From: Planctomycetota bacterium
GTDB taxonomy: Bacteria > Planctomycetota > MHYJ01 > JACQXL01
Direction of reading: 5' to 3'
Assembly: GCA_016235865.1 (NCBI GenBank)
Contig: JACRIK010000001.1
Coordinates: 62,001 to 126,000 of the forward strand
DNA: 64,000 nt
Every line of letters starts with the position of its first letter. Within the stretch, counting starts at the first letter, position 1. Shown here one piece after another: positions 18,723 through 54,543 of this stretch. Position numbers and translations under genes: made by a program. Below the pieces are notes generated by a model that was given only the letters and a program-made list of their open reading frames with translations, did not search any database and was not told the origin of the DNA.

Positions 18723-18817
18723 AACACGAATAGGACGAATAGAGCGAATGACACGAATAATACAAGGGAATAAAATTACTTATTCGTGGGATTCGTATAA
18801 TTTGTGTGATTCGTGTT
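18723..18817. repeat. 38-bp imperfect inverted repeat of ACACGAAT type
   Basis: Left arm 18723-18760 and right arm 18780-18817 both begin or end with AACACGAAT/ATTCGTGTT and match at roughly three quarters of positions. Each arm repeats CGAAT every 9-10 bases. It lies between the two dehydratase subunit genes. Confidence 0.6.
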
Positions 18818-18848
18818 CTCTTCTCTGTATTCGGCTAATATGTTACCT

Positions 18849-32443: not shown

Positions 32444-35400
32444 TTAGCGGTTGGCACTATAATCTGCCTGAATCTCGGCGGCGCTGCGGGCATAGTTATA
32501 GATTTTGACTTCATCAATACGGCCTTGGAAGAAGGTTGACCTTAATATGGTGGAAGACGCCAGATGCCCACCGATGGCAATGTCAGCCATGCTCGCAGTC
32601 AGGTTAACCGGGGCATCTGTCCGTTCATCAATCTTTGTTCCATTGATATAAATCTTTCTGGTGCCGGTGGACTTGTCATAAACCGCGGTCATATGGTTCC
32701 AGCTATTAAGGGCTAAAATACCATTCTGCGTGGTAAATACATGGAATTGGCTATCCTGTTGATGGGCATCGTCCGATATGCCGAATACCAATCTGCCGGA
32801 AGAAGTACTTAAGGCATATGCGCGCTGGCCGGACCAATCACCGGTATCACCCCATTTTGTCAGGATATGACCATATCGATCAGTCGTCGGGAAAATCCAG
32901 GCGTCTACTGAAAAGCTCCCCTGTGGATTTAGCAAAGGGGAATTCGGGACACGGACATAATCATCCAGTCCATCAAAAGAGAGGCATCCGTTCGACCAGG
33001 TGGCGCCAGAGACCGTGCCGTGATGACCGTTGCCCGTACTGTCCATAGCCGTTGCGCCTGAGGTCTCATCAAACTTCCACCAGGCAATCGGTCCCGGGTT
33101 TGCGGCCGGAGCGGGTGACACAGATGCTATTATATATCCAAGCTGGACCCGGCCGATGTATTCCTTGTAGCCGGCTTTTTCCGTTGCAGGCAGGGACAAG
33201 CTAAAATAGAGATATTCGGTTCCATCCGTGTCCTTGAAATAATGGGGACTGCTTATCCCCAATATATCGCTTCTCAACTGGGTCTTGTTTAGTATCTGCT
33301 CCCGGCCGGTCCAGTTTATTCCGTCCGCGCTGGTCGCCCGGTAGATGACGCTGTCCGGGCCGGAAGCAGCGGTATAATACATGGTATAAGTCCCGTCCGA
33401 TTCCTTGATGACATCCGGGGTCAAGACATTCTCTTCCGAAGTGCCCGGGACGCGGGCCAAGGCGAGTTGTTTATTGGTCCAGGTGATGCCATCAATACTT
33501 GAGGCCCGGGTGATATTAGACGGCCCGCCGACTCCGACCCGGGGGCGCTGGTTGACGCCATACCACATTGAGTAGGCGCCGTTTGCTTCTTTGACCAGTG
33601 ACGGCTGGCTGGTGCAGTAGTCGTCATAATTTGAAAGGTTGCCGCTTCCGGTCAGCACGGTTTTCTCATTGGCCCAGTTAATGCCATCGGCGCTGGTCAG
33701 ATGGGTAATATAGTAAGACCAGTCGCCGCCGATCCAGGTATAATAATCCGCTTGCCACATCCGGTAAGACCCGTTTTCCTTCATTACCCAGGGGTCGGTG
33801 GCCAGGCGATAGTCGTTCAGCACGGTGCCGTTGACGTGGACGCGCTGGCGGTTGGACCAGTTCGTGCCGTCCGCGCTTTCGGCATATCCGATGGAGCCGT
33901 CGTTCTGGTAGTAAGAACCGGCCCACCAGTAATTGTTTCCCCGATACCACATTTTGTAGATTCCGTTCTCTTTCAGGAGACAGGGCTTTCCCACGCCGTC
34001 TATTTCCCAGCCGGTGGCGGTCGGACTGAGAACTATCTGGAACGGGACCTGGGCGCCGGGCGCCGGTAAGGTGGTCGCTACAGCCATATTGCTGTATGCC
34101 GAGGTATTCCCGGTCGCATCATAGGCCGCCACGGTATAGTTGTAAGTCGTGGCAGAAGTTAATCCGGTGTCTGAGTAGTTAGTAGCATAGAGCGTAGAGC
34201 ATAGAGCGCCGTTACGATAAACCTTATAGCCAACCACAGCAACATTATCTGTTGGGGCGTTCCAAATAATATCTATCTGATTAGAACTTACGGTTGTTGC
34301 GATAAGCCCGGTCGGTATGCTGGGCGCTGAGGTATCAGGCGGGGTCAAGGTGGTGGCGCTGGCCAGGTTACTATGTGCTGAAATATTTCCAGCCGCATCA
34401 TAGGCCGCTACGGCATAACTATAGGTGGTGGATGGGAATAATCCGGCATCGCTATATGAAGCCGCGCCCACAGAGATAATATAGGTTCCGTTGCGGTAGA
34501 CCTTATAGCCGCCCATAGCGAGATTATCAGTCGAGGCGCTCCAGGTCAGATTTATCTGCGAGGTTGACACGGCTAAGGCATTAAGGCCGGTCGGGACAGA
34601 AGGCGGAGTGGTATCAGGCGGGGTCAAGGTGATGGCGCTGGCCAGGTTACTATGTGCGGAAACATTTCCGGCCGCGTCATAGGCCGCTACGGTATAACTA
34701 TAAGTTGTTGAGGCGGCCAGGCCGGCATCGCTATAGGTTATAGAGAGGACAGAAGCGATAAATGCTCCGTTACGGTAAATCCTATAACCGGCCACGCCGA
34801 CATTATCAGTCGAGACCTTCCAGAAGAGATTAATATGGGAGACGGATATGGGTGCGGCAACCAATCCGGCCGGTACGCTGGGCGGAGCAGTGTCCGGAGG
34901 CGGCCAGGTGTTTGCGCTAACCGGACTGCATTGAGCTGAGGTATTGCCGGCGGCATCGTAGGCCGCCACGCTATAACTATAGGTGGTTGAGGCGGCCAGG
35001 CCGGTGTTGCTATAGGAGGTGGCGCTAAGCTGAAGGAGTAAAGCGCCGTTGCGGTAGACTTTGTAGCCAGCCACGCCGACATTATCAGTAGAGGATTTCC
35101 AAGCCAGGTTTATCTGGTTGTGGGAGACCGCAACGGCAGTAAGGCTGACCGGGACAGTCGGCGCGGTGATATCAGGTGGAGCCAATGTGGTTGCGGCTGC
35201 AATGTTACTGAATGCGGAAATATTTCCAGCCGCATCATAGGCCGCGACGGTATAACTATAGGTGGTAGATGGCGCTAATCTGACATTAATATATGAAGCT
35301 GCAGCAACAGATGTAATACAGGTTGCGTTCCGATATATCTTATAGCCGACCACGCCAACATTATCCTTAGAGGGGTTCCAGGCCAGATTTATCTGGTTTG

Positions 35401-36610
35401 GGGAAACCGCAACGGCAGTAAGGCTGACCGGGGTAGTCGGCGCGGTGATATCAGGTGGAGCCAATGTGGTTGCGGTGGCCATGTTACTGAATGCGGAAAC
35501 ATTTCCAGCCGCATCATAGGCCGCCACGGTATACCTATAACCGGTTGAGGCAGCTAGGCCGGTGTCGCTGTAAGAGTAAATAGATGAAATGGTAGAGATG
35601 AGAGCGCCATTACGGTAGAGCTTATATCCGGTAACGCCGACATTGTCGGTGGAAGCATTCCATGAGAGATTTATCTGGCTGGGACTGACGGCAGTAGCAG
35701 CCAACCCTATCGGCACACTTGGCGGGGTTGTATCTGGCAGAGTCAGGGTGGTGGCCGTGGCAGTAACACTCGGATTTGAGAAATTCCCGGCCGCATCATA
35801 GGCCCTAACAAAATAGCAATAAGCCGTGCTGGGCGCCAATCCGGTGTCGGTATAGGACGTATCAGCTACTGCCTCCAGATAATCATCGCAATCATTACGA
35901 TAAACCCGATAGCCGTTCACCGCGACATTGTCAGCAGCTGTATTCCAGGTTAATCTGATTTCACAGGAACTTGTGGCGGTGGCTACGAGACCGTCGGGAG
36001 TACCGGGTGCGGTTTTGTCTGTTTTGACCCTAACCCAGCAGAAAGGCCTGATGCCGGTGAGTTTGGCCGGATTTTCCTCGTCCGGTCCGATATATCCGGC
36101 CTTGGGACCATCCTCATGCACCTTGCCTTTCTTATCCGGCAGGACAATCACCCAGTGGCCATCAATAAACTCCATCAGTTTAATGTCGGTATTGGAGAGT
36201 TCTTCGGCCCGGACATTGTCCGGCAGGATGACGTAGCAATCAGCTTCCTTGCCGTTATTAAAATCCGCTTTGTCATTATGTTTGGGCTTGAGATTAGCGC
36301 CACCCAGGAATTCACAGCCGTCGGGTAGGGCCTCTGGCAGGTCATCACTATGGCGGAATGGTATAAAGTCAATTTCAGTATCATTATCAACGGCCTGGGC
36401 CGGGACATCTATTTCTTGGCCGGGCGTGGAGTGGTTATCCTTGACGGTGTTATGTGAATTTGCCTTGATGATTAGCACGCTGCTGCTGCCACTGTCTGTC
36501 TCGTCGGTAAGATTACAGCCATTACCATTAAAGCCTAAAGACAGGGCAGAGGCCAGGAAGGCCAGCAGCCCCAGGCGCCACCCTCTAATCAGGTACCGCT
36601 TGGCAATCAT
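32444..36610 (-). CDS. Giant secreted protein: FN3 repeats, glycosidase-like propeller, LamG
   Basis: About 1388 residues from ATG 36610 (GGAG ten bases upstream). Signal peptide, a beta-rich N-terminal segment (about 30-185), seven fibronectin type III domains with starts like DTTPPSVPTGLNA and AAYDAAGNVSA, then a region with repeated YAESADGTNWSNR and ATSADGINWTGRE, as in five-bladed glycoside hydrolase (GH43/GH32-like) propellers, and a C-terminal LamG/concanavalin-like domain (AWWKFDETSG...GRIDEVKIYNYARS). Probably an extracellular carbohydrate-binding or -degrading protein; catalytic residues were not identified. Confidence 0.87.
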   Translation of the reverse strand: MIAKRYLIRGWRLGLLAFLASALSLGFNGNGCNLTDETDSGSSSVLIIKANSHNTVKDNHSTPGQEIDVPAQAVDNDTEIDFIPFRHSDDLPEALPDGCEFLGGANLKPKHNDKADFNNGKEADCYVILPDNVRAEELSNTDIKLMEFIDGHWVIVLPDKKGKVHEDGPKAGYIGPDEENPAKLTGIRPFCWVRVKTDKTAPGTPDGLVATATSSCEIRLTWNTAADNVAVNGYRVYRNDCDDYLEAVADTSYTDTGLAPSTAYCYFVRAYDAAGNFSNPSVTATATTLTLPDTTPPSVPIGLAATAVSPSQINLSWNASTDNVGVTGYKLYRNGALISTISSIYSYSDTGLAASTGYRYTVAAYDAAGNVSAFSNMATATTLAPPDITAPTTPVSLTAVAVSPNQINLAWNPSKDNVGVVGYKIYRNATCITSVAAASYINVRLAPSTTYSYTVAAYDAAGNISAFSNIAAATTLAPPDITAPTVPVSLTAVAVSHNQINLAWKSSTDNVGVAGYKVYRNGALLLQLSATSYSNTGLAASTTYSYSVAAYDAAGNTSAQCSPVSANTWPPPDTAPPSVPAGLVAAPISVSHINLFWKVSTDNVGVAGYRIYRNGAFIASVLSITYSDAGLAASTTYSYTVAAYDAAGNVSAHSNLASAITLTPPDTTPPSVPTGLNALAVSTSQINLTWSASTDNLAMGGYKVYRNGTYIISVGAASYSDAGLFPSTTYSYAVAAYDAAGNISAHSNLASATTLTPPDTSAPSIPTGLIATTVSSNQIDIIWNAPTDNVAVVGYKVYRNGALCSTLYATNYSDTGLTSATTYNYTVAAYDATGNTSAYSNMAVATTLPAPGAQVPFQIVLSPTATGWEIDGVGKPCLLKENGIYKMWYRGNNYWWAGSYYQNDGSIGYAESADGTNWSNRQRVHVNGTVLNDYRLATDPWVMKENGSYRMWQADYYTWIGGDWSYYITHLTSADGINWANEKTVLTGSGNLSNYDDYCTSQPSLVKEANGAYSMWYGVNQRPRVGVGGPSNITRASSIDGITWTNKQLALARVPGTSEENVLTPDVIKESDGTYTMYYTAASGPDSVIYRATSADGINWTGREQILNKTQLRSDILGISSPHYFKDTDGTEYLYFSLSLPATEKAGYKEYIGRVQLGYIIASVSPAPAANPGPIAWWKFDETSGATAMDSTGNGHHGTVSGATWSNGCLSFDGLDDYVRVPNSPLLNPQGSFSVDAWIFPTTDRYGHILTKWGDTGDWSGQRAYALSTSSGRLVFGISDDAHQQDSQFHVFTTQNGILALNSWNHMTAVYDKSTGTRKIYINGTKIDERTDAPVNLTASMADIAIGGHLASSTILRSTFFQGRIDEVKIYNYARSAAEIQADYSANR
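34060..36010 (-). repeat. Seven tandem ~290-bp FN3-coding repeats
   Basis: In-frame repeats encoding the FN3 domains; neighbours share near-identical blocks such as GCCGCATCATAGGCCGC (plus strand), so the array has probably been homogenised or expanded by recombination recently. Confidence 0.75.
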
Positions 36611-36716
36611 ATTGCTTTCGCTCCATATATATGAATGTTTGAGACACCCTAAAAACTGCACGGCATTGCCAAATACTCGAGAACATCAGAGTTGCTGCAT
36701 CTATGAATCTAATGAT

Positions 36717-39767: not shown

Positions 39768-39790
39768 GTAATAAAAGAAATAATTAGTGT

Positions 39791-39819
39791 TTGACATCCA
39801 CCAGTATTGTATATATAAT
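39791..39819 (+). promoter_or_regulatory. Perfect consensus promoter, leaderless, of the kinase gene
   Basis: TTGACA (39791-39796), exactly 17 bases, TATAAT (39814-39819), then six bases to ATG 39826, so transcription should begin at the start codon. Confidence 0.8.
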
Positions 39820-39825
39820 TTTAAC

Positions 39826-42603
39826 ATGGAGCAAAAACCATTGGCTGGAGATGGAATTAATGTTGTTTCGGGCGCCAATGCCCTGAGCAGTCCGTCACCG
39901 CAAAGGATCCTGCCGGAGTACCTGACCGGTAAATTCGGCAATTATCAGATTGAAGGAAAGATAGGTCAGGGCGGGATGGGGGTAATCTATCTGGCTACGG
40001 ATTTAACCCTGAACCGCAAGGTGGCGCTCAAGATTCTGCTACCGCAGGACGAGGAGTCGCTCAAACGATTCATCGGCGAGGCGCAGGCCGCAGCTAAACT
40101 CAAACATCCGAATATTACGCAAATCCATGAGGTCGGAACTGTTGAGGGTCTCCACTACTTTACGATGGACCTGATTAGCGGCAGCGCTCTGGATGATTTC
40201 ACCGAAGAAGGTCATTCTAAACTAACACCCCGTGAGATTGCCGAGGCCATACGGGAGATTGCTCTGGCTTTGGACTATGCACACAGCCAGGGAATTATCC
40301 ACCGCGATATAAAACCGTCAAATATACTGATAGACCAGGAGGGAAGGGCTTATCTGACTGATTTCGGGCTGGCCAAGGAAATCAATAAACTGGACCGTTC
40401 GCTGACTGTTACCGGCACGATTATCGGCACGCCGGAATTCATGTCGCCGGAACAGGCTAAAAGCGATAAGAAAAAACTTGATGGGCGCAGCGACATATTT
40501 TCTCTGGGTACCACATTTTATTATGCCTTGACTGGCCAATCGCCTTTTAAGGCGGCTGATTTTTACGATGAATTAAGTAATGTGCTGAATAAAGACCCGG
40601 CCCGGCCAGCCAAGATTATGCCCAATCTTAATCGTGACCTTGAAACCATCTGCATGAAGTGCCTGGAAAAGGAACCATCGCAACGTTACCAAAGTGCCAG
40701 GGAATTGGCAGATGATATCAAGCGTTTCCTGGACGGGGAGGTTATTACGGCGCGTCCAACCGGGTTGCTTACCAGATTTATCAGAAAAGCGCGGAAGAAT
40801 AAGATTGCAGTTGCAGCCGTGGGGCTGGCCGCGGCTCTGGTTATAGCCGTGGCTATTGTTATGATTCTTTTCTGGGCTCAAGCACAGTCCAGAAATAAGG
40901 CTGAAATGATCTTGAATCAGATAAAATTAGGCAACCTCAGCCCAGATGAACGAATTACCATCGCTCAAAATGCCTTAGAGATTGACCCCCGTTTTGGGCA
41001 GGCATACGAGATTATAGGAGAATCCTATTATGATAAAAAAAGGGCCGAGAAGGCATATGAGGCGTTTACTAAGGCGATCGAGCTGAATCCGATATCGTCT
41101 TTTTCCTATTACCGGCGGGGTTGTATAGTGGAAAAGATTTTAAAGAAGCCGAAGGATGCCATTTCGGATTATAAAAAGGTAATTGAACTCGCCCCGGACA
41201 GCGATATCGGATACGTCGCCCACGGGATTGTGGCTTTTGGGCAGCAGCAATATGATGAGGCCTTCAATGATTTCAACCGGGCAATAAAATTAAATCCAAA
41301 GGGCATAGAAGGTTATAATCGACGAGCGATGGTTTATCTGCACCGAATGCAGAGAGATAAAGCCCTGGCCGATTGGGGAAAAGCCATAGAGATTAATCCC
41401 CGGGACGATATGACCTACCGGGCGCGGGGTTTTTTTTACTATATGATGAAAGATTTTTCCCGGGCCTTGGCCGATTTCGATAAGGCCATCGAATACAATG
41501 ATACAGATGCTGACCTTTTTCATGAGCGAGGCTTTACGCACCGGGAAAATAATGAACCGGATTTGGCCCTGGCGGATTTTGCCCAGGCACTAAAGCTTGA
41601 ACCCAGGCAGGGCATGTTTTACCATGACCGTGGCATTACCTATAGGATTAAAAAGCAATACGATAAAGCGCTTGATGATTTTAGCATGGCGATTAGACTT
41701 GACCCTAACTATCTCGAGTCCTATGTGGAACGCGGCAATACCTTCCTAAGGAAAAAGGAATTAGACCTGGCACTGGCTGATTTTAGCACGGCGATAAAGA
41801 TCGAACCGAAAAATCCGGATTTATACAGTTTCCGCGGCATTGCTTTAGGAGAAAAGGGCGACTACAATACGGCGCTGTCAGATTTTAATACGGCCCTTCA
41901 GCTTAATCCGGGTAACGCTCTTTACTATCATAACCGCGGCATTGTCTATGAGCGTATAAATATGCCCGACTTAGCGCTGGCTGATTTCGACATGGCAATA
42001 GGGATGGACCAAAACATTGATACGGCCTATTCCTGGCGGGCGATAGTTCATTACAAGAAAGGCCATATTGAATCTGCCTTAGCTGATTGTAATAGCGCCA
42101 TAAAACTTAATCCTAGAAATGAACGGGCTTATTTTTGCCGTGCCTCGGTTTACAGGGATAGGGGGAATCTTACACAGGCATTAGCTGATTTCAGCAAGGT
42201 ACTAGAGCTTGCCCCTAATGATGCTTCAATCTATTACTACCGCGGAACTGTTTATTACCTGAAAAAACAGTTTGATATGGCAATCAGCGATTTTACCAAA
42301 GCCACTGAAATCACGACGGACAAAGCCGACCTGGCAACCGCTTATGACTATCGCGGTCGGTGCTATTTTAAAATAAAAGATTTTGACCGGGCGATTCGAG
42401 ATTACAATAAAGCAATAGAATTGAATGACAAGATGGCAATATATTATTATGACCGGGCTATGGTTTATGACGATAAAAAAGATTACAAAAATGCAGTTTC
42501 AGACGGGGAAAAATTCCTGCAATTGGATACATCAGCGCAACATAAAGATATGCGTGAGTTGGTCAAGGAATGGAAGAAATTGATCCCAAAAGAGGATAGA
42601 TAG
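39826..42603 (+). CDS. Ser/Thr protein kinase with transmembrane helix and long TPR array
   Basis: 925 residues from ATG 39826; an earlier in-frame start (39787) would place the consensus promoter inside the gene. Kinase signatures: GQGGMGVIYLA, ALKILL, HRDIKPSNILI, DFGLAKEI, GTPEFMSPEQA. A membrane helix (VAAVGLAAALVIAVAIVMILF) follows at about 325, then roughly fourteen 34-residue TPRs of the type ALADFSTAIKIEPKNPDLY filling the rest. It probably senses or assembles partners through the repeats. The kinase half is closely related to the one at 13.0 kb. Confidence 0.95.
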   Translation: MEQKPLAGDGINVVSGANALSSPSPQRILPEYLTGKFGNYQIEGKIGQGGMGVIYLATDLTLNRKVALKILLPQDEESLKRFIGEAQAAAKLKHPNITQIHEVGTVEGLHYFTMDLISGSALDDFTEEGHSKLTPREIAEAIREIALALDYAHSQGIIHRDIKPSNILIDQEGRAYLTDFGLAKEINKLDRSLTVTGTIIGTPEFMSPEQAKSDKKKLDGRSDIFSLGTTFYYALTGQSPFKAADFYDELSNVLNKDPARPAKIMPNLNRDLETICMKCLEKEPSQRYQSARELADDIKRFLDGEVITARPTGLLTRFIRKARKNKIAVAAVGLAAALVIAVAIVMILFWAQAQSRNKAEMILNQIKLGNLSPDERITIAQNALEIDPRFGQAYEIIGESYYDKKRAEKAYEAFTKAIELNPISSFSYYRRGCIVEKILKKPKDAISDYKKVIELAPDSDIGYVAHGIVAFGQQQYDEAFNDFNRAIKLNPKGIEGYNRRAMVYLHRMQRDKALADWGKAIEINPRDDMTYRARGFFYYMMKDFSRALADFDKAIEYNDTDADLFHERGFTHRENNEPDLALADFAQALKLEPRQGMFYHDRGITYRIKKQYDKALDDFSMAIRLDPNYLESYVERGNTFLRKKELDLALADFSTAIKIEPKNPDLYSFRGIALGEKGDYNTALSDFNTALQLNPGNALYYHNRGIVYERINMPDLALADFDMAIGMDQNIDTAYSWRAIVHYKKGHIESALADCNSAIKLNPRNERAYFCRASVYRDRGNLTQALADFSKVLELAPNDASIYYYRGTVYYLKKQFDMAISDFTKATEITTDKADLATAYDYRGRCYFKIKDFDRAIRDYNKAIELNDKMAIYYYDRAMVYDDKKDYKNAVSDGEKFLQLDTSAQHKDMRELVKEWKKLIPKEDR

Positions 42604-44598: not shown

Positions 44599-45390
44599 TT
44601 AGCTCTGGCTTTCCGGGTTGGCAGGGGTGCGCTTACGCAGCAGTTCCCAGAGAGTAATGATAATAGCTACGACAAAGAAGAGCACGATAGGGGCGTAGTA
44701 ATAATCGCCGGTTTTGGACCAGTTGACCAGCTTGGTCAGCCGTCCGATAGCCAGCGATTCACGGGCCATTACGGTGTAGCCGAAGGCCGCGCCGAAAGCA
44801 ATCATCATGTAATATATACCGGTCCGGGCGACACCCTTGATAACCCCTTTGTGCTCTACCGAGAAGAAGAAATAAATCAGGACGGCTAAGACGCCGATGA
44901 GGATTATTATTGTGTTGGCAGTCTGGAGTAAAGTAATATCCTTTCCCCAGAGCGGTTGAAGCGTCGGGATTATCTGTTTGAATATCGTGGCCGATATGGC
45001 ATTGGGTATAATCATTCCAGAGCCGGCGCCGATAATAAATGCAAAGGAATAGCGGGACAGCCAGCCAATCTTAGATGAAAATCGCGTCAGCATAAAGACG
45101 CCCAAGACCAGCGGAATAATCAGCCAGAAGGTTTCGTATGGCTCCAACTGCGTATCCAGTTTGTAATTGAGTGTGTGCAGCGTTACCCGTTTTAACGGCA
45201 GGATTAAGTCGGGCCAGACCACGACGTACCAGGCGTAGCATAATCCGTATCCGGCGCTTAATCCAACATAGATGTATTCGCCCAATTTAAATAGGGGGTT
45301 GTCTTTGTAAAGGAAACTGTACATCATCAGGGTGAACCCGACAGCCAGCCAGACCTCAATGACCTGCAATGTGAAGATTGTTTCTATCAT
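44599..45390 (-). CDS. Module subunit D (copy 1): multi-pass membrane protein
   Basis: 263 residues with six or seven hydrophobic helices. Shared with copy 2 (48.2 kb): YSFLYKDNPLFKLGEYIYVG near the N-terminus, IYFFFSVEHKG and AFGYTVMARESLAIGRL near the C-terminus. Copy 1 has an extra C-terminal helix and polar tail. Function unknown. It is the last gene of an eight-gene run and overlaps subunit C by ATGA, consistent with a stoichiometric membrane complex. Confidence 0.75.
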   Translation of the reverse strand: MIETIFTLQVIEVWLAVGFTLMMYSFLYKDNPLFKLGEYIYVGLSAGYGLCYAWYVVVWPDLILPLKRVTLHTLNYKLDTQLEPYETFWLIIPLVLGVFMLTRFSSKIGWLSRYSFAFIIGAGSGMIIPNAISATIFKQIIPTLQPLWGKDITLLQTANTIIILIGVLAVLIYFFFSVEHKGVIKGVARTGIYYMMIAFGAAFGYTVMARESLAIGRLTKLVNWSKTGDYYYAPIVLFFVVAIIITLWELLRKRTPANPESQS

Positions 45391-46217
45391 ACTTTTGGTT
45401 TTCTGCGCGACAGGAAATAAGCTGCATTTCCGATAATTATCAATAGAATAATTAAAGAATGAACTACGGTCTGAGGTTTCATGCTTTCCGTGGCTGTTCC
45501 TCTATGCTGGATTAATGCCTCGTATTGTGAGGCGGCCCCTAATCCGCCCACCAATCCCAGGAGTTGCCCTGATTGCAGGTAGGGATAATAATCTGTGGCC
45601 ATGACGCCGGTGCATCCGGCGCCTAAAGGCATCTTACCTTTTTCCTTGCCGAAGATAATCCACGTATCAACCGCATTGCCGGCTGAAATGCACATCGCAT
45701 ATTTTATATCCCTGAGTGATTTGACCCCTTTAAGAACCGGTAAATCTTTAGTCTTGTTGCCTTTGTGGTCTTCCGGGTAAGTGAAAGAAATATCCTGGCT
45801 TATATTTAATATAACAGAACTTACGCCTGGCTTATAGGGCATTATGGCAAAATCAATCCCTTCCTGTTTGTTAAATTCTTTGGAGGTCTTAATGAAGATG
45901 TCGCTCATAGTGCCGTAGGCGGACGGGCCCCAGATAGTCATCCCGACAACCCTCAGATTTTGTCTGAATCCGTGGCGCAATACTGCGGTAGCTATCGGTC
46001 TTAATTCTTCATCGGATGAAGGGTCAAAATCAAGCGAGAGGATTATGGGCGAGCCGGCCGGTAGTTTCTCTATATGGTCATAGATGCTTTTTACCACCTT
46101 TGACGAGGTGTCGGGAAGTTTTATATTTTCCTTTATAATAACAGGAATAATAATGGCTAAGGCAACCAGGATGAAAATTAGCCAGCGCGTCATATTGAAA
46201 TTCATTTCTTTAGTCAT
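45387..46217 (-). CDS. Module subunit C (copy 1): bitopic protein with alpha/beta domain
   Basis: 276 residues: an N-terminal helix, a soluble domain of about 200 residues and a C-terminal helix (VVHSLIILLIIIGNAAYFL). Motifs shared with copy 2: SIYDHIEKLPAGS, RHGFRQNLRVV, a QDI/KG/LPV segment and YYPYLQSGQLLGLVGGLG. The soluble part looks like an alternating alpha/beta fold, but I cannot assign a family or active site. It is packed between subunits B (2-base gap) and D (ATGA overlap). Confidence 0.72.
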   Translation of the reverse strand: MTKEMNFNMTRWLIFILVALAIIIPVIIKENIKLPDTSSKVVKSIYDHIEKLPAGSPIILSLDFDPSSDEELRPIATAVLRHGFRQNLRVVGMTIWGPSAYGTMSDIFIKTSKEFNKQEGIDFAIMPYKPGVSSVILNISQDISFTYPEDHKGNKTKDLPVLKGVKSLRDIKYAMCISAGNAVDTWIIFGKEKGKMPLGAGCTGVMATDYYPYLQSGQLLGLVGGLGAASQYEALIQHRGTATESMKPQTVVHSLIILLIIIGNAAYFLSRRKPKV

Positions 46218-46219
46218 AA

Positions 46220-46915
46220 TTAATCCTTGCCGCCGCCTAAGTAAGACCGTTCAATGCCGAAGATAATCCTTAATGAAAAAGCTATGGAGCCCATAGCAAT
46301 ACCGAAAAGAAGCGCCCGTTTTGCCGCAGTAGTCGGCACAGTAAAGAGCCAGACCATAATATCCGGAATACCCTGCCAGAGCATTTGGCCTAAAGGCGTT
46401 TGACCTAACATAATAATCACGGCGGCCACCAATAGCAGAGTGGCCTCTATGCTGCGCGCCCTGAAAGTCCTGAAAGCGGCTGAGGCGATAAAGAATCCGA
46501 TAATTGAAAACATCGTGGCTGAAAGCGGCGTGATACCGTGTTTGAAAACCCAGTCCAGAAGCCCACCTTCTCCTATTCCGCTGATTAAATACCATTTCGG
46601 CGCTTCTGATGGCGCTGTCCCAGGGCTGAACCAGCCAATCACCGACGGTAAAAATCCGGACGCGACGCTGATTATAAATGCTGTAAACATTATTACGCTA
46701 AACCCCCAGCCTGGAACCCCGCGACGAATCTGCACAGAATGGAAATGCAGTAAACTCCAGATACCTAAAAGCAACGAAATACCCCCGATAATCATTATCC
46801 ATTTGTTAACCCAGAGAAGGAAGTATTGCGACCATTGATGGGGGACAAAATACTGGACAATAAAGAGCATCCCCATTATAAATGCGATAGCTAACGGCAA
46901 CTGTCGTCTGAGCAT
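46220..46915 (-). CDS. Module subunit B (copy 1): multi-pass membrane protein
   Basis: 231 residues with about six helices. The conserved core with copy 2 is ATMFSIIGFFIASAAFRTFR, then ATLLLVAAVIIMLG and the C-terminal RIIFGIERSYLGG. The Arg-rich FRTFRARS loop is identical in character in both copies. Unknown function. It starts two bases after subunit A, so the order A-B-C-D is tightly coupled. Confidence 0.75.
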   Translation of the reverse strand: MLRRQLPLAIAFIMGMLFIVQYFVPHQWSQYFLLWVNKWIMIIGGISLLLGIWSLLHFHSVQIRRGVPGWGFSVIMFTAFIISVASGFLPSVIGWFSPGTAPSEAPKWYLISGIGEGGLLDWVFKHGITPLSATMFSIIGFFIASAAFRTFRARSIEATLLLVAAVIIMLGQTPLGQMLWQGIPDIMVWLFTVPTTAAKRALLFGIAMGSIAFSLRIIFGIERSYLGGGKD

Positions 46916-46917
46916 AG

Positions 46918-48114
46918 TTAAAACGTTCTAAACAGATTAGTTAAAAAAGCAATTCCGGAAGTGCTTAAGCCGGAGCCGACGAGTAATATCAAGATAATGA
47001 GGCCCTTGCTTACATCCTGTCCTTTCAGCGATCCTAATTGGAGCGGTTCTCTTGACAAATAGGCGGAAGAAGCATATAGCTCCTCGCCCATTAAGGTATA
47101 ATCGCAGGTGGTGATAAAGAAAGGTAATTGTGTAATAGAATCGGTCCCGGCAATCTGCATAGCTCCGGTAGCAGCTCCGGTTTCAGCCAGAAGTAATGCC
47201 TCGGCATAGTAATACCCCATATAAATATTAGCCGCCGGTTTATGTCGCATCATCATTCCTTCTACCGCCGCCGCATAGGCGAACTGGTCATTGGTAACAA
47301 AGAAGATATTATCTTGCTTAAAGGCATCAGGTCGGCCGGCTTCTACATACGCTTCTTTTACTACTTCCTGGCAGACCGACATTACGATGGGGTCATAGCA
47401 GGGGACCATTATCTGCGAATCGTAGTTAGCCACCTTACGGGCAACTTTACCTAAAATGCTGGTCGAGGCAATTGTGGAAAGCGAGTCCATGCCGTGCAGT
47501 CCGTTCAGATAGAGAATCGGCTTGCCCATTTCAGTTGCCCGTCCGATGGTTTCTTCTATAGCATCCAAACCCGGGATGCGCCTGATAAAAAGATTGGGGT
47601 TATTACGGGCCGCCCTGATAAAGAACATTATAAGGCCCGAGAAGAATATGACGCAAATCAGTATGTTGACCTTTGACGTATCAAACCAGTTGCCTTTGGG
47701 AGTAGCCGAAACAACCGCTGGGAACTCTATGGTATTAGAATTGTCTGTTATTGTCAGATTGAAATATGTAGTAGTCGTGGCTGGAACTTCATAGAAATGC
47801 CACAGTTTATTGTTTTCGCTTAAACCAAAGTATTGCGGAAAATCCGATTTGTATGAGGTGGTGGAAAGAATTGGGTCCGACTGTGTCCAGGGACCATCCG
47901 GTGATGGGCTGGTGGAAATGATATATTTTACGCCTTCGCGGTCATTTTCTGATACCTTCCAGGTCAAGCCAATACTACCGCTTGCATCATTAGGCGTATC
48001 AAAGGCGGTAAATTCTTCTGGCGGGGTTAAGGATTGTCTGTCCTGAGCTAAAACCGGTAAAGAACAAACAATTACTAAAACCGTTAACCCTGCAATTAAC
48101 AACTTTGGGTTCAT
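46918..48114 (-). CDS. Module subunit A (copy 1): FN3 plus conserved membrane-linked domain
   Basis: From ATG 48114 about 398 residues: signal peptide ending LPVLAQD, an FN3-like domain (about 25-140), a membrane helix, then a conserved domain of about 200 residues and a terminal helix. Landmarks: GRATEMGKPILYLNGL, VPCYDPIVM, GRPDAF, DNIFFVT, AETGAATGAMQIAGTD, CDYTLMGEELYA, SREPLQLGSLKGQD. I think this resembles the family catalogued as DUF6754, unverified. Its own promoter lies 11-39 bases upstream. Confidence 0.78.
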   Translation of the reverse strand: MNPKLLIAGLTVLVIVCSLPVLAQDRQSLTPPEEFTAFDTPNDASGSIGLTWKVSENDREGVKYIISTSPSPDGPWTQSDPILSTTSYKSDFPQYFGLSENNKLWHFYEVPATTTTYFNLTITDNSNTIEFPAVVSATPKGNWFDTSKVNILICVIFFSGLIMFFIRAARNNPNLFIRRIPGLDAIEETIGRATEMGKPILYLNGLHGMDSLSTIASTSILGKVARKVANYDSQIMVPCYDPIVMSVCQEVVKEAYVEAGRPDAFKQDNIFFVTNDQFAYAAAVEGMMMRHKPAANIYMGYYYAEALLLAETGAATGAMQIAGTDSITQLPFFITTCDYTLMGEELYASSAYLSREPLQLGSLKGQDVSKGLIILILLVGSGLSTSGIAFLTNLFRTF

Positions 48115-48124
48115 AATGCCGGAT

Positions 48125-48153
48125 TTTATAACAGACATAGTGAATGTGGTCAA
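48125..48153 (-). promoter_or_regulatory. Internal promoter before module copy 1
   Basis: Minus-strand TTGACC (48153-48148), 17-base spacer, TATAAA (48130-48125), then ten bases to ATG 48114. It lies between copy 2 and copy 1 of the module, so copy 1 can be expressed separately. It also shows that the longer in-frame start at 48153 is unlikely. Confidence 0.6.
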
Positions 48154-48165
48154 GGAAATATCTTA

Positions 48166-48768
48166 TTACTTTATTAGTGGTATCCAGTCCTGAAAAAGGA
48201 ATTCCAGTCGCCCGATTAGTAGCGAGATACGGGCCATAACTGTGTAGCCAAACGAGGCCCCGAAACCGACCATTATAAACAAAATGCCTATTTTGCTAAC
48301 CGAACTAACAATCCCCTTATGTTCACTCGAGAAGAAGAAATAAATCATAACGCAAAGCACACCGACTACAATAAGGATGCTGTTAATATCGGTCATCGGC
48401 AACATAGTACCTTGTAGTTGTTTTAGCATACTGGCCTGGATTATTAATGGTAGGTTAATGCCAGTGGAAATCCCCAGAACAAAAGCAATAGTGATCCGGC
48501 TGAGCCAGTCATATTTCTGAAAGAATCTGGAAAACATCAGGCATCCAATAAGCGCCGGAAAAATTAACACCCAATCGCCTTCATGAAAAATGGGGTTTAT
48601 TAATCTTGGCAATACTATCTGGTAATAACTTATTACTATAGAGTAACCTACCGAAACTCCAACGAAAAGATGTTCGGCTGCCTTGTAAAGAGGATTGTCT
48701 TTATATAAGAATGAATATATGGCTAAGGTCAAAAGAGCCGCTATCCAAACATAGATATCTGATGACAT
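48166..48768 (-). CDS. Module subunit D (copy 2): multi-pass membrane protein
   Basis: 200 residues with about six helices, paralogue of the 44.6-kb protein. Shared motifs are YSFLYKDNPLYKAAEHLFVG, IYFFFSSEHKGIVS and ASFGYTVMARISLLIGRLEF; the protein ends shortly after the last of these, without the extra helix of copy 1. Seven bases separate it from subunit C. Confidence 0.75.
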   Translation of the reverse strand: MSSDIYVWIAALLTLAIYSFLYKDNPLYKAAEHLFVGVSVGYSIVISYYQIVLPRLINPIFHEGDWVLIFPALIGCLMFSRFFQKYDWLSRITIAFVLGISTGINLPLIIQASMLKQLQGTMLPMTDINSILIVVGVLCVMIYFFFSSEHKGIVSSVSKIGILFIMVGFGASFGYTVMARISLLIGRLEFLFQDWIPLIK

Positions 48769-48774
48769 ATTGTT

Positions 48775-49587
48775 TTACGCCTTTTTACTTCGCGTCATAA
48801 AGTAGGCAATATTACCTACAACTATTAAAACCAAAATTAATAAGTGGGCGATGGACTGAGAATCCATTCTGATACAACCCTTATCCGGTTTATTAATCAG
48901 GAGTTCGTATTCAGCCGCACTTCGCAACCCCCCCATCAGTCCGATAATCTGCTTGGTCTGGAGATACGGGTAGAGGTCGGCTGCGCCTACTGCAGTGACT
49001 CCGACTGCCAAATCGGCATTATACATCGTAACTGCCGTTCCGATATAGCCGGTTCCTGAAGCAGTATAATCAACAATAAGCCCAATATCTTTGTATGTCC
49101 GCACATTTTTCATCACCGGTAGTTCCTCTATTTTAGTTCCTTTATAATCAGCCGGGAATGTTTTGTGAATATCCTGTCCCATTCCCAGGGTGACCGGTCC
49201 CGCCTGGAATCCCAGGTTCACATAATCTGTTCCTTCTTGTTTATTATATTCTTTGGCTGCCTCCTGTAACGCCATTTCACCTATACCAACACCTGTAATA
49301 ACAAGTGAAACACAAACCACTTTGATATTATGCCTGAAGCAGTGCCTGATTACCGCCAGGGTCATCGGATATAGTTCAGGCATAGTAGATGGGCTATAGC
49401 TGATGGAAATAAGGACAGTTGAACCTTCAGGTAACTTTTCTATATGGTCATAAATGGCTTTAACCGGTGGCTGGATACCTTTTATAGGCAGTCCTATCTT
49501 AAATATCAACGGCAGGAGCACCGCCAGAAATACAAGGGCGAAGATAATACGTCTATCAAGTTTTGACAGCATTTTCCAGAATTCCAT
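48775..49587 (-). CDS. Module subunit C (copy 2): bitopic protein with alpha/beta domain
   Basis: 270 residues with the same plan as copy 1: N-terminal helix, soluble domain, C-terminal helix (HLLILVLIVVGNIAYFM). Conserved: AIYDHIEKLPEGST, IRHCFRHNIKVV, GQDIHKTFPADYKGTK and LYPYLQTKQIIGLMGGL. Side chains between these motifs differ strongly from copy 1, suggesting different ligands or partners rather than simple redundancy. Confidence 0.72.
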   Translation of the reverse strand: MEFWKMLSKLDRRIIFALVFLAVLLPLIFKIGLPIKGIQPPVKAIYDHIEKLPEGSTVLISISYSPSTMPELYPMTLAVIRHCFRHNIKVVCVSLVITGVGIGEMALQEAAKEYNKQEGTDYVNLGFQAGPVTLGMGQDIHKTFPADYKGTKIEELPVMKNVRTYKDIGLIVDYTASGTGYIGTAVTMYNADLAVGVTAVGAADLYPYLQTKQIIGLMGGLRSAAEYELLINKPDKGCIRMDSQSIAHLLILVLIVVGNIAYFMTRSKKA

Positions 49588-49593
49588 TAATTC

Positions 49594-50226
49594 TTACTCC
49601 TTGCTTCCTAAATAAGACCTTTCGATACCGAATATTATTTTCAATGATGTTGCCATCATACCCAGGCATACTCCCAGAAGGATTCCTCTTTTCTGCGCCA
49701 TATTAGGGACTACCATAATCCATTCTGTGAAGGAAGGCAATCCATCCCACACCAATGAACCAAAGGATACCCGGCCCAGCATTACAATAAATGCCGTAAC
49801 CAGGAGAATGGTCGCCACGGCAGTTCTGGCCCGGAATGCCCTGAAAGCGGCTGATGCCATATAAAACGCCAGGATTGAGAACATTGTTGAATCCAGCGGG
49901 ATAAATACTGATTCGTATGCCTTGGCAAGAGGGACTCCTTGAACACCCCAGCCAAAGCCGACTATACACATAAATGCAATTCCGGCAAAGGTTATGACGC
50001 TGTAGCCCCAACCTTCTCTTTGGTGGGATATCTTAAAATAATGCAATCTGAATAAACTTGCTAATCCGATTAACAGGAAGAAAGATCCGATAATTGGTAG
50101 CCACCTTGTTGTCAATTCAGTAAAGAATGTTTGAGCCAACGGATTGGAGCGCGGTATGAAAAACCACATTATCATTGCCATACCACCCACGAACGTAAGA
50201 ATTAACGGTAATTTACGTTTATACAT
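49594..50226 (-). CDS. Module subunit B (copy 2): multi-pass membrane protein
   Basis: 210 residues, about six helices. Conserved with copy 1: STMFSILAFYMASAAFRAFR, ATILLVTAFIVMLGR and LKIIFGIERSYLGS. The loop between helices 3 and 4 is shorter than in copy 1. It begins three bases after the stop of subunit A. Confidence 0.75.
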   Translation of the reverse strand: MYKRKLPLILTFVGGMAMIMWFFIPRSNPLAQTFFTELTTRWLPIIGSFFLLIGLASLFRLHYFKISHQREGWGYSVITFAGIAFMCIVGFGWGVQGVPLAKAYESVFIPLDSTMFSILAFYMASAAFRAFRARTAVATILLVTAFIVMLGRVSFGSLVWDGLPSFTEWIMVVPNMAQKRGILLGVCLGMMATSLKIIFGIERSYLGSKE

Positions 50227-50229
50227 AAC

Positions 50230-51090
50230 CTATATCTTAAACAGATTAATAAACCAGCAGAATATATCAGTTTGCATTGTTGCATTCAGTGTTGCGCAGA
50301 CGACTCCGGCAATAATTATTAGCATCAGGATAAACTTACTATAATCTTGTCCCTTAAGCGAACCCAACAATAATGGTTCTCGTGATAGGTATGCGCTGGC
50401 CGCATACAATTCCTCACCTATTAGGGTGTAATCACAGGCAACGAAAAAGAAGGGGAGTTGTGCCACGGCATCGGTTCCGGCAATTTGTATTGCCCCGGTT
50501 GCCGCGCCGGTTTCAGCCAGCAGCAACGACTCTGCCCAGAACATACCCATATAAAAATTAGTGGCCGGTTTTTCTCGGACCATAATACCGGATACCGCAG
50601 CTACATATCCAAACTGACTATCCGTTACAAAAAATATATTGTCCGGCCTGAATGCGTCCGGTCTGCCTTTATTAATATATGCATTTTTAACTACTTCCTG
50701 TTGGATGGTCATTACTAATGGGTCGCGGCAGGGAACGATCAGTTTAGTATCATACTCCGCGGTCTTTTCGGCTACCTTACCAAGAATATTAATTGCCGCA
50801 ATTGTGGCAACATCATCCAGGGTGCTTAGACCAGGCACATAAAGAATCGGTTTACCCATCTCGGTTGCCCGGCCAACAGCTTCTTCCACTGCCTCAAGGC
50901 CGGAAATCTTTCTGACAAAGAATGACCTGCCTTTTCTGGCGTGATAGATGAAATATAGAATCATGGCGGAAAATATCACCAGGAAAATCAGGACATTGGT
51001 CTTTTGGACTTCATACCAGTCAGGGAAATTAAATGAGAGAGAAATGAAGCAGAATTGGTTCTGCATAGAACTTATCAGATTATAAATCAT
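50230..51090 (-). CDS. Module subunit A (copy 2): conserved membrane-linked domain without FN3
   Basis: 286 residues. A short N-terminus and membrane helix (VLIFLVIFSAMILYFIYHA) lead directly into the conserved domain, which looks about two-thirds identical to copy 1 over 165 residues: GRATEMGKPILYVPGL, VPCRDPLVM, GRPDAF, DNIFFVT, AETGAATGAIQIAGTD, CDYTLIGEELYA, LLGSLKGQD. The FN3 domain and signal peptide of copy 1 are absent. It is the first gene of the eight-gene run, 50 bases after korB. Confidence 0.77.
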   Translation of the reverse strand: MIYNLISSMQNQFCFISLSFNFPDWYEVQKTNVLIFLVIFSAMILYFIYHARKGRSFFVRKISGLEAVEEAVGRATEMGKPILYVPGLSTLDDVATIAAINILGKVAEKTAEYDTKLIVPCRDPLVMTIQQEVVKNAYINKGRPDAFRPDNIFFVTDSQFGYVAAVSGIMVREKPATNFYMGMFWAESLLLAETGAATGAIQIAGTDAVAQLPFFFVACDYTLIGEELYAASAYLSREPLLLGSLKGQDYSKFILMLIIIAGVVCATLNATMQTDIFCWFINLFKI

Positions 51091-51140: not shown

Positions 51141-51899
51141 TTATTTAAACTCGCCTGTTAGTATTTTATCTTTTTCGCTGAAGGTGAAAAGTTCATCCGG
51201 CTGTTTGGCCCGGACCGAAATGTTCTTCAGGTCCAAAACCATATTTGCCGGTGATGTGCCGCAGACATTCTGGTTCCGGCGGCCATATTGGGTATAGCAA
51301 GGCGAAACCGTATCAATGAAAGAGAATCCTTTGTGAGTTAACGCCTTTTTAATATATTTTACCAGTTCCTTTACATGAAATACCGTGGAACGGGCGATAT
51401 AGGTGGCTCCCGCGCCCCAGACGAGTTTACACAGGTCAAACGGCGGTTCTGATGCGCCTTGCGGCGTGGTGGCCGTCTTTGCTCCGCAAGGCGTGGTCGG
51501 CGCCACCTGGCCGCCGGTCATTCCGTAGATGGAATTATTAGCGCAGATAACGGTTAATTCTATGTTGCGCCGGGCCGCATGAATCAGATGATTGCCGCCG
51601 ATAGCCGCCAGGTCGCCGTCTCCGCTGATAACCACGACCTTTAACGCCGGATTAAATAACTTAATACCGGTGGCATAAGCAATCGGGCGACCGTGCAAGG
51701 TATGCAGGGTATCAGCCGCAAAATGCGGGCTAGGAATCCAGGCCGCGCAGCCAATCCCGGAAACGAACACCATCTTATCTATATCCAAAGATAATTCATC
51801 TAGGGCCCTTAGGATGGCCTGCATTAGGATGCCGTGCCCGCATCCCTGGCAGAATGGTGTCGGAAATACCTCTGGCCTGATGTATTTATCTAATTTCAT
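51141..51899 (-). CDS. korB: 2-oxoacid:ferredoxin oxidoreductase beta subunit
   Basis: 252 residues, the thiamine-diphosphate binding subunit. TPFCQGCGHGILM opens the domain, GIGCAAW follows, and GDGDLAAIGGNHLIHAARRN is the TPP/Mg site. Size and motifs match 2-oxoglutarate-type enzymes, although branched-chain 2-oxoacids or pyruvate cannot be excluded. It overlaps the alpha gene by 14 bases. In the cell it would reduce ferredoxin while making the acyl-CoA. Confidence 0.92.
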   Translation of the reverse strand: MKLDKYIRPEVFPTPFCQGCGHGILMQAILRALDELSLDIDKMVFVSGIGCAAWIPSPHFAADTLHTLHGRPIAYATGIKLFNPALKVVVISGDGDLAAIGGNHLIHAARRNIELTVICANNSIYGMTGGQVAPTTPCGAKTATTPQGASEPPFDLCKLVWGAGATYIARSTVFHVKELVKYIKKALTHKGFSFIDTVSPCYTQYGRRNQNVCGTSPANMVLDLKNISVRAKQPDELFTFSEKDKILTGEFK

Positions 51900-52992
51900 T
51901 TAGTTTGTCTGCTATTTCACTGGCGGTAATAACCGTGCCGTTGGTCTTGTTGTATTGTTCCACCGGTAGAGCAGTGAATCGTTGTATTTCGCGGACAATT
52001 TGTCCCTGATTCATCTCCGGAACAACAATCTTTTTAACGGTTTTGGGAAGTTCCCTAAATATCCCTTCCGGAAAAGGCCAAATGGTTTTAAGGCGGATAA
52101 GTCCCACTTTATGTCCATCAGCGCGGGCCGTCTGAACCGCCTTTAAAGCGCTCCGGGCCGTAAATCCATAGGCAATCACTATGGTCTCGGCGTCTTCTAT
52201 ATGATAACTTTCATATGAGATGATTTTATCCGTATTTTGCTTTATCTTATTGCAGAATCTGGCGACTGATGTTGCCTGGGCTTCAGGCGACTGGGTCTTG
52301 CGATAGCCCCATTCATCGTGGGTCGAGCCGGTGACGGAAAGCTTCCGGCCCTGGCCGAACATCGGCATCGGCGTGACGCTGTTGTCTTTGGAATTGCCAA
52401 AGGTCGGGAGATCGGTATGGTCCACGCGATTTACAACCGGAATATCGGGAGATATCACGGCAGATTCTCTTATGTGTCCGACGGCTTCATCAGCCAGCAG
52501 GAATACCGGGACGCGGTATGTCTCGGCCAGGTTAAATGCCTGGATGGTCATTTCATACATCTCGGTGGCAGACCAGGGCGATAGGGCAATGATTTCGTAG
52601 TCGCCGGATGCGCCCCAGCGGACCTGCATCACATCGCCGGAAGCCGGCTTGGTGGCCTGCCCGGTGGACGGACCGGCGCGCTGGACATCCACAATTACGC
52701 AGGGCGTCTCGGTCATTATGGCGTACCCGATATTTTCCAGCATCAGTGTCAGTCCCGGTCCGGAAGTAGCGGTCATGGCCTTGGCGCCGGCCCAGGTTGC
52801 GCCGATGACCGCACCCATAGAGCCGATTTCATCCTCCATCTGGACAAAGACGCCGCCTACCTTGGGCAATTCGCGGGCCATCTGCTCCATTATCTCGCTT
52901 GAGGGCGTAATCGGATATCCGGCATAAAACCGACAGCCGGCCTTGATAGCGCCCAAGGCACAGGCCTCATTTCCTTGGAGAAATTGTGGCAT
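51886..52992 (-). CDS. korA: 2-oxoacid:ferredoxin oxidoreductase alpha subunit
   Basis: 368 residues, the pyrimidine-binding/CoA-handling subunit. FLQGNEACALGAIKAGCRFY, AGYPITPSSEIMEQMA and MEDEIGSMGAVIGATWAGAK are typical of the KorA/VorB group. It is too short to contain a fused gamma domain. The order delta-alpha-beta lacks a gamma gene locally. It overlaps the delta gene by 26 bases. Confidence 0.93.
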   Translation of the reverse strand: MPQFLQGNEACALGAIKAGCRFYAGYPITPSSEIMEQMARELPKVGGVFVQMEDEIGSMGAVIGATWAGAKAMTATSGPGLTLMLENIGYAIMTETPCVIVDVQRAGPSTGQATKPASGDVMQVRWGASGDYEIIALSPWSATEMYEMTIQAFNLAETYRVPVFLLADEAVGHIRESAVISPDIPVVNRVDHTDLPTFGNSKDNSVTPMPMFGQGRKLSVTGSTHDEWGYRKTQSPEAQATSVARFCNKIKQNTDKIISYESYHIEDAETIVIAYGFTARSALKAVQTARADGHKVGLIRLKTIWPFPEGIFRELPKTVKKIVVPEMNQGQIVREIQRFTALPVEQYNKTNGTVITASEIADKLNEIR

Positions 52993-53209
52993 CTTTTAAA
53001 CTCTTTACTTCTATGGCCAGATCCGGGCAATGCAGTTCGCATTCCAAGCAACCGATGCATTTCTTCTGGTCAATGACCTGGGCCAGCAGATAGCCGCTGG
53101 CCATTGGCTCCTGGGACATGGCCAGGACCTTCTTCGGGCATATCTCAACGCAGATAGCGCAACCCTTGCAGCGGTCATCTATTATTTGGACTGTAAACTC
53201 TTTTTTCAT
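52967..53209 (-). CDS. korD: 2-oxoacid:ferredoxin oxidoreductase delta subunit (2[4Fe-4S] ferredoxin)
   Basis: 80 residues with two classical cluster motifs, CKGCAICVEICP and CIGCLECELHCP, that relay electrons from the TPP site to free ferredoxin. Its ATG shares one base with the stop of the aminotransferase gene (TAATG), implying coupled translation. Confidence 0.92.
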   Translation of the reverse strand: MKKEFTVQIIDDRCKGCAICVEICPKKVLAMSQEPMASGYLLAQVIDQKKCIGCLECELHCPDLAIEVKSLKDATISPRK

Positions 53210-54543
53210 TACACCTTGCGTAACACTTTGCCGATTATCTCAATAGCCACGTCAATATCGTTCTTAGTGATAATCAATGACGGCGAGAAACGGATGTTAT
53301 TCTCTCCACAACCGACCAGGAGAATGCCTTTCTTAAAGCACTCGTTGACAATCCTGATCCGTCTGGCCGGGTCTTTGGCCTTGGTCTTGCGGTTCTTTAC
53401 TATTTCTATTCCGACCATCAAGCCCATGCCTCTGACATCGCCGATAAAATCATATCTATTCTGGAGCGCTTTAAGCCGTTTAATCAGATAGTCGCCGGTA
53501 ATGCGGGCGTTTTCCATTAATGATTCCTCAAGCATCTCTATGGTTTTGAGCGCGGCCGCGCAGCAGACCGGATTGCCGCCAAAGGTATTGGCGTGCGCGC
53601 CGGTTGGCCAGGTCATAATGCTGGACTTGGCGACCATAACGCTTAACGGCAGGCCTGACGCGATTCCCTTGGCAATGCAGACCATGTCCGGCTCCACCTT
53701 CCAATGTTCGATAGCGAACATCTTTCCGGTTCGGCCTAATCCGGATTGAATCTCATCAACTACCAGCATAATGCCGTGCTTGGTGGCAATGGCCCTGAGT
53801 TTCTGGAAATATCCGTTCGGCGGAACCACGTAGCCGCCCTCGCCCTGGATGGGCTCAATAACAACCGCCGCCACATCTTCAGGCGGCGCGACCTTAGCAA
53901 AAATAACATCCTCTAAATATGACAGGCAGGCCAGGTTACATTTGGGATACGTCAGATTAAAGAGACAACGATAGCAATACGGATAGGGGATATGGGTGAC
54001 TTCAGAAAGCATCGGGGAAAAATGCCGCCGCTGTGATGCTTTGCTGGCGGTCAGAGACAGGGCGCCCATGGTCCGTCCGTGGAAAGAGCCGATATAGGCA
54101 ATCATCCTTGGACGGCGCGTATGATAGCGGGCCAGTTTAATCGCCGCCTCAACTGCCTCGGCACCGGTGCAGGCCAGGAACGCTTTCTTGGCAAATTTAC
54201 CGGGCGTAATCCGGCACACCGCCTCGGCTACGTCTGATTGCCAGCGGTAATAAAAATCCGTGCCGATCATGTGGATTAACTGCTCGGCTTGCTCCTGAAT
54301 AACCCGAACCACCTCCGGATGGCAATGACCGGTTGCATTGACTGCCACACCGGCGTTCATATCCATATAACGGTTGCCGTCCGGGTCCTCGACCATCATT
54401 CCGTAGCCGCGTTCGGCAACAAACGGATATCCGCGCGTGTATGAAGGCGAGATATACTTGGCGTCCTTGGCCAATACCTTCCTGGCTTCAGGCCCGGGTG
54501 GGGCGATTTTGATTAGGGGGCGGTTTGCGTTTTGGTGCAGCAT
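53209..54543 (-). CDS. Class III PLP-dependent aminotransferase
   Basis: 444 residues, fold type I. Landmarks: DPDGNRYMDMNAGVAV, GAEAVEAAIKLAR (cofactor phosphate), SFHGRTMGALSLTASK, VIEPIQGEGGY, VVDEIQSGLGRTGK, IAKGIASGLP (Schiff-base Lys) and HANTFGGNPVCCAAAL. It resembles the acetylornithine/4-aminobutyrate group, especially thermophile-type broad-specificity enzymes. Sitting first in the kor operon, it may supply the 2-oxoacid by transamination, so the operon could ferment or oxidise an amino acid. The exact substrate is unproven. Confidence 0.9.
   Translation of the reverse strand: MLHQNANRPLIKIAPPGPEARKVLAKDAKYISPSYTRGYPFVAERGYGMMVEDPDGNRYMDMNAGVAVNATGHCHPEVVRVIQEQAEQLIHMIGTDFYYRWQSDVAEAVCRITPGKFAKKAFLACTGAEAVEAAIKLARYHTRRPRMIAYIGSFHGRTMGALSLTASKASQRRHFSPMLSEVTHIPYPYCYRCLFNLTYPKCNLACLSYLEDVIFAKVAPPEDVAAVVIEPIQGEGGYVVPPNGYFQKLRAIATKHGIMLVVDEIQSGLGRTGKMFAIEHWKVEPDMVCIAKGIASGLPLSVMVAKSSIMTWPTGAHANTFGGNPVCCAAALKTIEMLEESLMENARITGDYLIKRLKALQNRYDFIGDVRGMGLMVGIEIVKNRKTKAKDPARRIRIVNECFKKGILLVGCGENNIRFSPSLIITKNDIDVAIEIIGKVLRKV

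Follow-up and report, generated by a model that had tools for sequence, protein, structure and literature searches.

What kind of cellular machinery is encoded when the same four membrane-protein genes stand twice, end to end? The question arises from a 64,000-nucleotide stretch of a Planctomycetota genome (GenBank assembly GCA_016235865.1; hereafter the window), in which the listing of open reading frames (ORFs) shows eight minus-strand genes transcribed from position 51090 to 44599 in the order A1-B1-C1-D1-A2-B2-C2-D2. An earlier annotation made from the letters alone (the sequence-only reading) had recognised this tandem pair of four-gene modules, which we call ABCD, without naming a function. 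It missed three further partner families, E, M and X, which change the interpretation. We tentatively read the seven families together as an ATP-driven or ATP-gated membrane machine, E-M-X-(ABCD)n, that would move a substrate through the ABCD core.

The ABCD module and its age

The arrangement of the module is as the sequence-only reading had described it. All eight genes lie on one strand, and in transcription order they are separated by 3, 6, 6, 12, 2 and 2 bases, followed by a 4-base overlap of C2 and D2. The two copies are clearly paralogous and contain the motifs quoted for them. In blastp comparisons the A proteins are 60% identical over 257 amino acids (aa; E = 3e-118), the B proteins 39% (E = 3e-52), the C proteins 40% (E = 1e-53) and the D proteins 45% (E = 1e-57). 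The suggestion that A corresponds to DUF6754 was borne out, as A1 and A2 match PF20539 with 417 and 401 bits, against a gathering cut-off of 27 bits. They are the only DUF6754 genes in this genome, one in each ABCD module. No reliable Pfam match was found for the B, C or D families. Other details had to be reassigned. A signal peptide and a fibronectin type III (FN3) domain are present in one copy of A, but their carrier is A2, and the first-transcribed A1 lacks both. The extra helix of D is real, but it belongs to the second-transcribed D2 (263 versus 200 aa). The proposal that each copy has its own promoter is unsupported: promoter-like sites numbered 30, against 19.9 +/- 4.4 in shuffled sequences, and the spacing from D1 to A2 is only 12 bases.

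Scanning genome contigs with A1 identified 78 loci, labelled WOR-3, Stahlbacteria, Eisenbacteria, Zixiibacteriota, Fermentibacteria, Coatesbacteria, Latescibacterota, Cloacimonadota, Planctomycetota and others; these phylum labels are those of metagenome bins, which can be mis-assigned or incomplete. No A relative was found on viral contigs. Searching all ORFs of the loci with iterated profiles of the four families recovered 94 complete ABCD modules in 68 loci (the window included), with the gene order kept. The four families thus recur as one syntenic block, part of what the sequence-only reading had named as support. Modules stand in tandem in 21 of the 68 loci, as two copies in 16 and three in 5. 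Across phyla, A proteins keep 50-63% identity, and many of their charged residues are invariant.

In a tree of the concatenated proteins, one clade (support 0.98) unites 16 modules of several lineages; the locus of most of these also holds a module that is not in the clade, so two types of ABCD module are old. The second module of the window pairs with that of locus L069 (support 1.0), and the window's first module is not part of this pair. We therefore rejected a recent duplication; the two copies are ancient paralogues. One sequence in the tree of A alone, from L091, was a mis-extracted outlier and was ignored. Since the two module types coexist in several lineages, it is plausible that the copies work as a functional pair.

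Other genes recur beside the module in some lineages. In 12 loci labelled WOR-3 or Stahlbacteria (including L008, L009, L010, L012, L013, L014, L017 and L020), the gene immediately upstream of A encodes an SLBB/polysaccharide-export-type protein. By eye, L033, L035, L048 and L061 have a gene resembling lipoate-protein ligase immediately downstream of the module, and several Eisenbacteria-type loci have genes for the glycine cleavage P-protein upstream of it.

Three partner families, E, M and X

When flanking genes were clustered, the commonest neighbour was a MutL-containing cluster present in 19 loci, neighbour counts here resting on a simple ORF caller. Profiles resolved three partner families, E (~115 aa), M (~600 aa, PF13941) and X (~375 aa), whose usual order is E-M-X immediately before A. 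A same-strand run E-M-X-A occurs in 13 loci, and a same-order relative (G005, locus L136) reads E-M-X-ABCD-ABCD. In the genome of the window, the three partners lie on a contig (C3) other than that of ABCD (Table 1).

We assessed co-occurrence in whole genomes with profiles of A, C, E, M and X; those of B and D were confined to the loci. Among 59 relatives, A is present in 24 genomes, C in the same 24, M in 23, E in 22 and X in 19, and every genome with E or X falls inside the A set. The identical distributions of A and C fit the recurrence of the families as one block. A clear glutamate mutase was found in a single genome, G032, which is also the sole one with M and without A. ABCD occurs without M in two of the 59, one 76% complete (G035) and one with a listed contamination of 8% (G058). 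In 294 Planctomycetota genomes of at least 90% completeness, a set that overlaps with the 59 and from which M matches under the family cut-off were removed, A and M occur together in 93, A alone in 4, M alone in 2 and neither in 195, so that 288 of the 294 are concordant. The association is strong (Fisher p = 6e-69, a value that ignores shared ancestry), and the patchy spread over many families is a better argument for it than the p-value. Among 32 A-bearing genomes reached through the loci of many phyla, M is present in 31 and X in 30.

What is M? It matches the GlmL/MutL superfamily (PF13941) above the cut-off, with 426 bits (E = 3e-127), and the phosphate-1, phosphate-2 and adenosine motifs of ASKHA-fold ATPases are kept in 47, 51 and 53 of 53 M sequences for phosphate-1, adenosine and phosphate-2, respectively. 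Against the NCBIfam models for GlmL, its ornithine-associated relative and a GlmL subfamily (accessions, in no particular order, TIGR01319, NF040745 and NF040744), M of this genome scores 229, 207 and 164 bits where the cut-offs are 475, 600 and 204; none is passed. The same failure was seen for M of five further loci and for a fused M-X protein (M scores overall, 112-237 bits), whereas the subfamily cut-off is exceeded by a fragment of the genuine GlmL from G032. Glutamate mutase (PF06368) is absent from this genome and from all other genomes with both M and A among the 59. Because M falls below the GlmL-type cut-offs, yet retains the ASKHA motifs, we regard it as a separate branch of GlmL-family ATPases that is tied to ABCD and is not GlmL.

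X consists of an N-terminal barrel-sandwich region and a KOW-like C-terminal end. In Fermentibacteria-type genomes, parts resembling M and X also occur fused in one protein of ~910-920 aa (Table 1), which suggests contact between M and X.

The family membership of M opens the main alternative to a transport machine. In this reading M would be a chaperone-type ATPase whose task is to load, repair or assemble a membrane enzyme formed by ABCD, which would catalyse and not transport. A chaperone role has been proposed for the GlmL relatives of M, and named members of its family sit with B12-dependent mutases, as does the GlmL-type MutL of G032, which adjoins the glutamate mutase. The invariant charged residues and the high identity of A across phyla are also what an active site would show. 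Set against this are the distance of M from the GlmL-family cut-offs, the missing glutamate mutase, and the failure to find a cofactor site or an enzyme homologue in A-D. We consider a chaperone rather unlikely.

Predicted topology and the proposed machine

In AlphaFold2 models, A1 and C1 each consist of a membrane helix, a six-strand alpha/beta domain and a second membrane helix. Counts of lysine and arginine beside the helices assign the domain of A to the cytosol for 67 of 68 sequences and that of C to the outside for 42 of 56, with 4 against. By the same charge pattern, B is predicted to have its N terminus inside and D outside. The soluble domains of A and C are thus predicted to face opposite sides of the membrane, and B and D to be oppositely oriented within it. 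Most A proteins also carry an FN3-type ectodomain (family profile against titin FN3 in the Protein Data Bank (PDB), E = 6e-20). A and C share the order of their secondary-structure elements. Homology between A and C, or between B and D, was undetectable by profile comparison (hhalign probability <1%), and we dropped both pairings.

The FN3 ectodomain and the ASKHA fold of M bear on a second alternative, an envelope scaffold or surface-assembly apparatus in which an actin-like M would organise ABCD as PilM or FtsA organise their partners. Tandem multiplication of the module would fit such a role, as would the SLBB protein upstream of A in WOR-3 loci. That link is seen in a single lineage group, the ATPase motifs of M are complete, and no sequence relation to PilM or FtsA emerged in the searches made. 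A scaffold therefore seems improbable.

A third alternative is an ion-pumping or redox-linked complex of a design like Rnf or Na+-NQR, with X as its peripheral subunit. The N-terminal region of X weakly matches RnfC_N (best E = 1.4e-6) and NQRA_N (5.8e-5); the match shown with a cut-off falls below it. RnfA and RnfE have opposite topology, as predicted here for B and D, and genes for a 2-oxoacid:ferredoxin oxidoreductase (kor) lie upstream in the window. In A-E and X, no conservation was seen of clustered cysteines or histidines that might bind Fe-S, haem or similar cofactors, nor of any metal-binding pattern, and neither Pfam nor the PDB gave B and D a match to the Rnf or Na+-NQR membrane subunits (RnfADE/NqrBDE). 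The kor, ferredoxin and aminotransferase neighbours are missing from all other fetched loci. The tie to ferredoxin energy metabolism that the sequence-only reading had thought possible is therefore unsupported, and we rejected it; a redox-linked pump is, in our judgement, distinctly improbable.

Two further candidates were set aside. A covalent flavin site at the TGAxTG motif of A was dropped because the threonine is <90% conserved and the domain is predicted to be cytosolic. As for a defence system, no PADLOC model matched A1-D1, A2, D2, E, M or X.

In the transport machine that we favour, B and D would be embedded in the membrane in opposite orientations. A would turn its conserved alpha/beta domain toward the cytosol, with FN3 outside in most versions, and C would present a similarly built domain on the outside. 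On the cytosolic side, M would cooperate with X and E, the most likely docking site being the cytosolic domain of A. By using ATP, M would power or gate the movement of a substrate through the ABCD core. The analysis shows which families belong to the set, their order and joint occurrence, the ATP-site motifs and the predicted topology; from these we infer that the seven proteins form a single physical complex on which the ATPase M acts; transport is its probable output and our best guess.

Several observations weigh against this reading. Sequence and fold comparisons gave no transporter homologue for any component, and the annotation of the known GlmL relatives is that of mutase accessory proteins, not of motors. 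No M was detected in a few genomes that have ABCD or A (G058, G105, G232 and G324), and M occurs without A in G170. In some genomes, such as G045 and G245, the parts are scattered over the chromosome.

The survey points to Kuenenia stuttgartiensis (G131) and Planctopirus limnophila (G245) as carriers. The former has E-M-X at one site and ABCD at another; in the latter, where A, B, M and X were searched, X-A-B stands at one site and M elsewhere. P. limnophila is an aerobe, and carriage by both it and an anaerobic anammox bacterium argues against a ferredoxin-tied role. In the main texts searched, on the essential genes of Planctopirus and on transcriptomes of Kuenenia, the system is not mentioned.

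A set of seven families that co-occur almost perfectly, are strongly conserved and span many phyla is likely to do something basic in cells, and it is found in about one third of the sampled Planctomycetota genomes. Six of the families are without a described function and the seventh, M, is easily mistaken for a glutamate mutase accessory protein. If our reading is true, the annotation of M as 'glutamate mutase L' should be corrected in genomes that lack glutamate mutase. Carriage by K. stuttgartiensis, and probably by P. limnophila, makes the function directly testable.

Surroundings of the module and likeness to known systems

The genes directly upstream of A1 encode the alpha and beta subunits of the oxidoreductase, a ferredoxin and an aminotransferase. 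Elsewhere the window encodes two serine/threonine protein kinases that each carry a long fused TPR-type region, 2-hydroxyacyl-CoA dehydratase/benzoyl-CoA reductase-like proteins with an ASKHA activator, and two large repeat proteins, one of which, a surface-type protein, matches the A profile, probably through its FN3 part. A further subunit of the dehydratase/reductase type is encoded near selenocysteine genes on contig C3.

Table 1. Coordinates of the module, its partners and other features (window positions unless a contig or locus is named).
Feature	Position	Strand	Basis or remark
A1, DUF6754 protein, 286 aa, without FN3	50230-51090	-	PF20539, E = 2.8e-125
A1 segments: transmembrane (TM) 28-52, cytosolic alpha/beta domain 63-236, TM 239-272			AlphaFold2 mean pLDDT 88.7; positive-inside count, 67/68 homologues
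B1, polytopic membrane protein, 210 aa, ~6 TM, predicted N-in	49594-50226	-	ORF; alignment n = 53; charge pattern
C1, 270 aa, TM 12-28, predicted extracytoplasmic alpha/beta domain 40-230, TM 236-269	48775-49587	-	AlphaFold2 mean pLDDT 94.8; alignment n = 56; charge pattern
D1, polytopic membrane protein, 200 aa, ~6 TM, predicted N-out	48166-48768	-	ORF; alignment n = 52; charge pattern
A2, DUF6754 protein, 411 aa, signal/anchor segment and FN3-like ectodomain	46918-48153	-	PF20539, E = 2.5e-120; 60% identical to A1
B2, paralogue of B1	46220-46915	-	39% identity, E = 3e-52
C2, paralogue of C1	45387-46217	-	40% identity, E = 1e-53
D2, paralogue of D1, 263 aa, extra C-terminal helix	44599-45390	-	45% identity, E = 1e-57; hydrophobic segment 233-251
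E and M	C3:89220-90969
X	C3:76566-77690
Fused second MutL paralogue and X-like barrel-sandwich region	L175:1484-4216	-
Fused second MutL paralogue and X-like barrel-sandwich region	L042:17468-20230
Fused second MutL paralogue and X-like barrel-sandwich region	L045:13192-15942
2-oxoacid:ferredoxin oxidoreductase alpha and beta, ferredoxin, aminotransferase	51141-54543	-
Serine/threonine protein kinase with TPR-type region	13009-15987	+
Serine/threonine protein kinase with TPR-type region	39787-42603	+	Pfam checked for this one only
2-hydroxyacyl-CoA dehydratase/benzoyl-CoA reductase-like genes and ASKHA activator	17588-21079	+	by eye
1732-aa protein with cadherin-like, RCC1-like and further tandem repeats	24647-29845	+	by eye
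1405-aa surface-type protein with many FN3-like repeats	32444-36661	-	A profile match
2-hydroxyacyl-CoA dehydratase/benzoyl-CoA reductase-like subunit, contig C3	L135:9328-10515

By the sequence and fold comparisons made, no component matches a described complex. We think it possible, if somewhat doubtful, that the system is an undescribed kind of machine, in which an ASKHA ATPase of the GlmL lineage would energise a four-subunit core built from two oppositely oriented pairs (B/D in the membrane and the A/C domains), spread over many phyla and with multiplied modules. Four known systems come closest to its parts. The soluble domains of A and C belong to the same generic fold class as the Rossmann and SIS-like alpha/beta domains of the PDB, but neither has a confident match there (best E = 2.5e-3 for A and 1.1e-4 for C; TM-scores normalised by the query ~0.4 or less). 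The Pfam entry for DUF6754, to which A clearly belongs, covers one domain without a function, and the six partner families are not described alongside it; no naming paper was found in the open-access literature, a description elsewhere being possible. X is weakly similar in its N-terminal region to the barrel-sandwich domains of RnfC and NqrA (PF13375 and PF05896), but differs from them in its remainder, including the KOW-like end, and in its membrane partners. Finally, M shares its family profile and ATP-site motifs with GlmL, the methylaspartate mutase accessory family, but differs from it in scoring below the equivalog and subfamily cut-offs and in going with ABCD and X where GlmL goes with a mutase.

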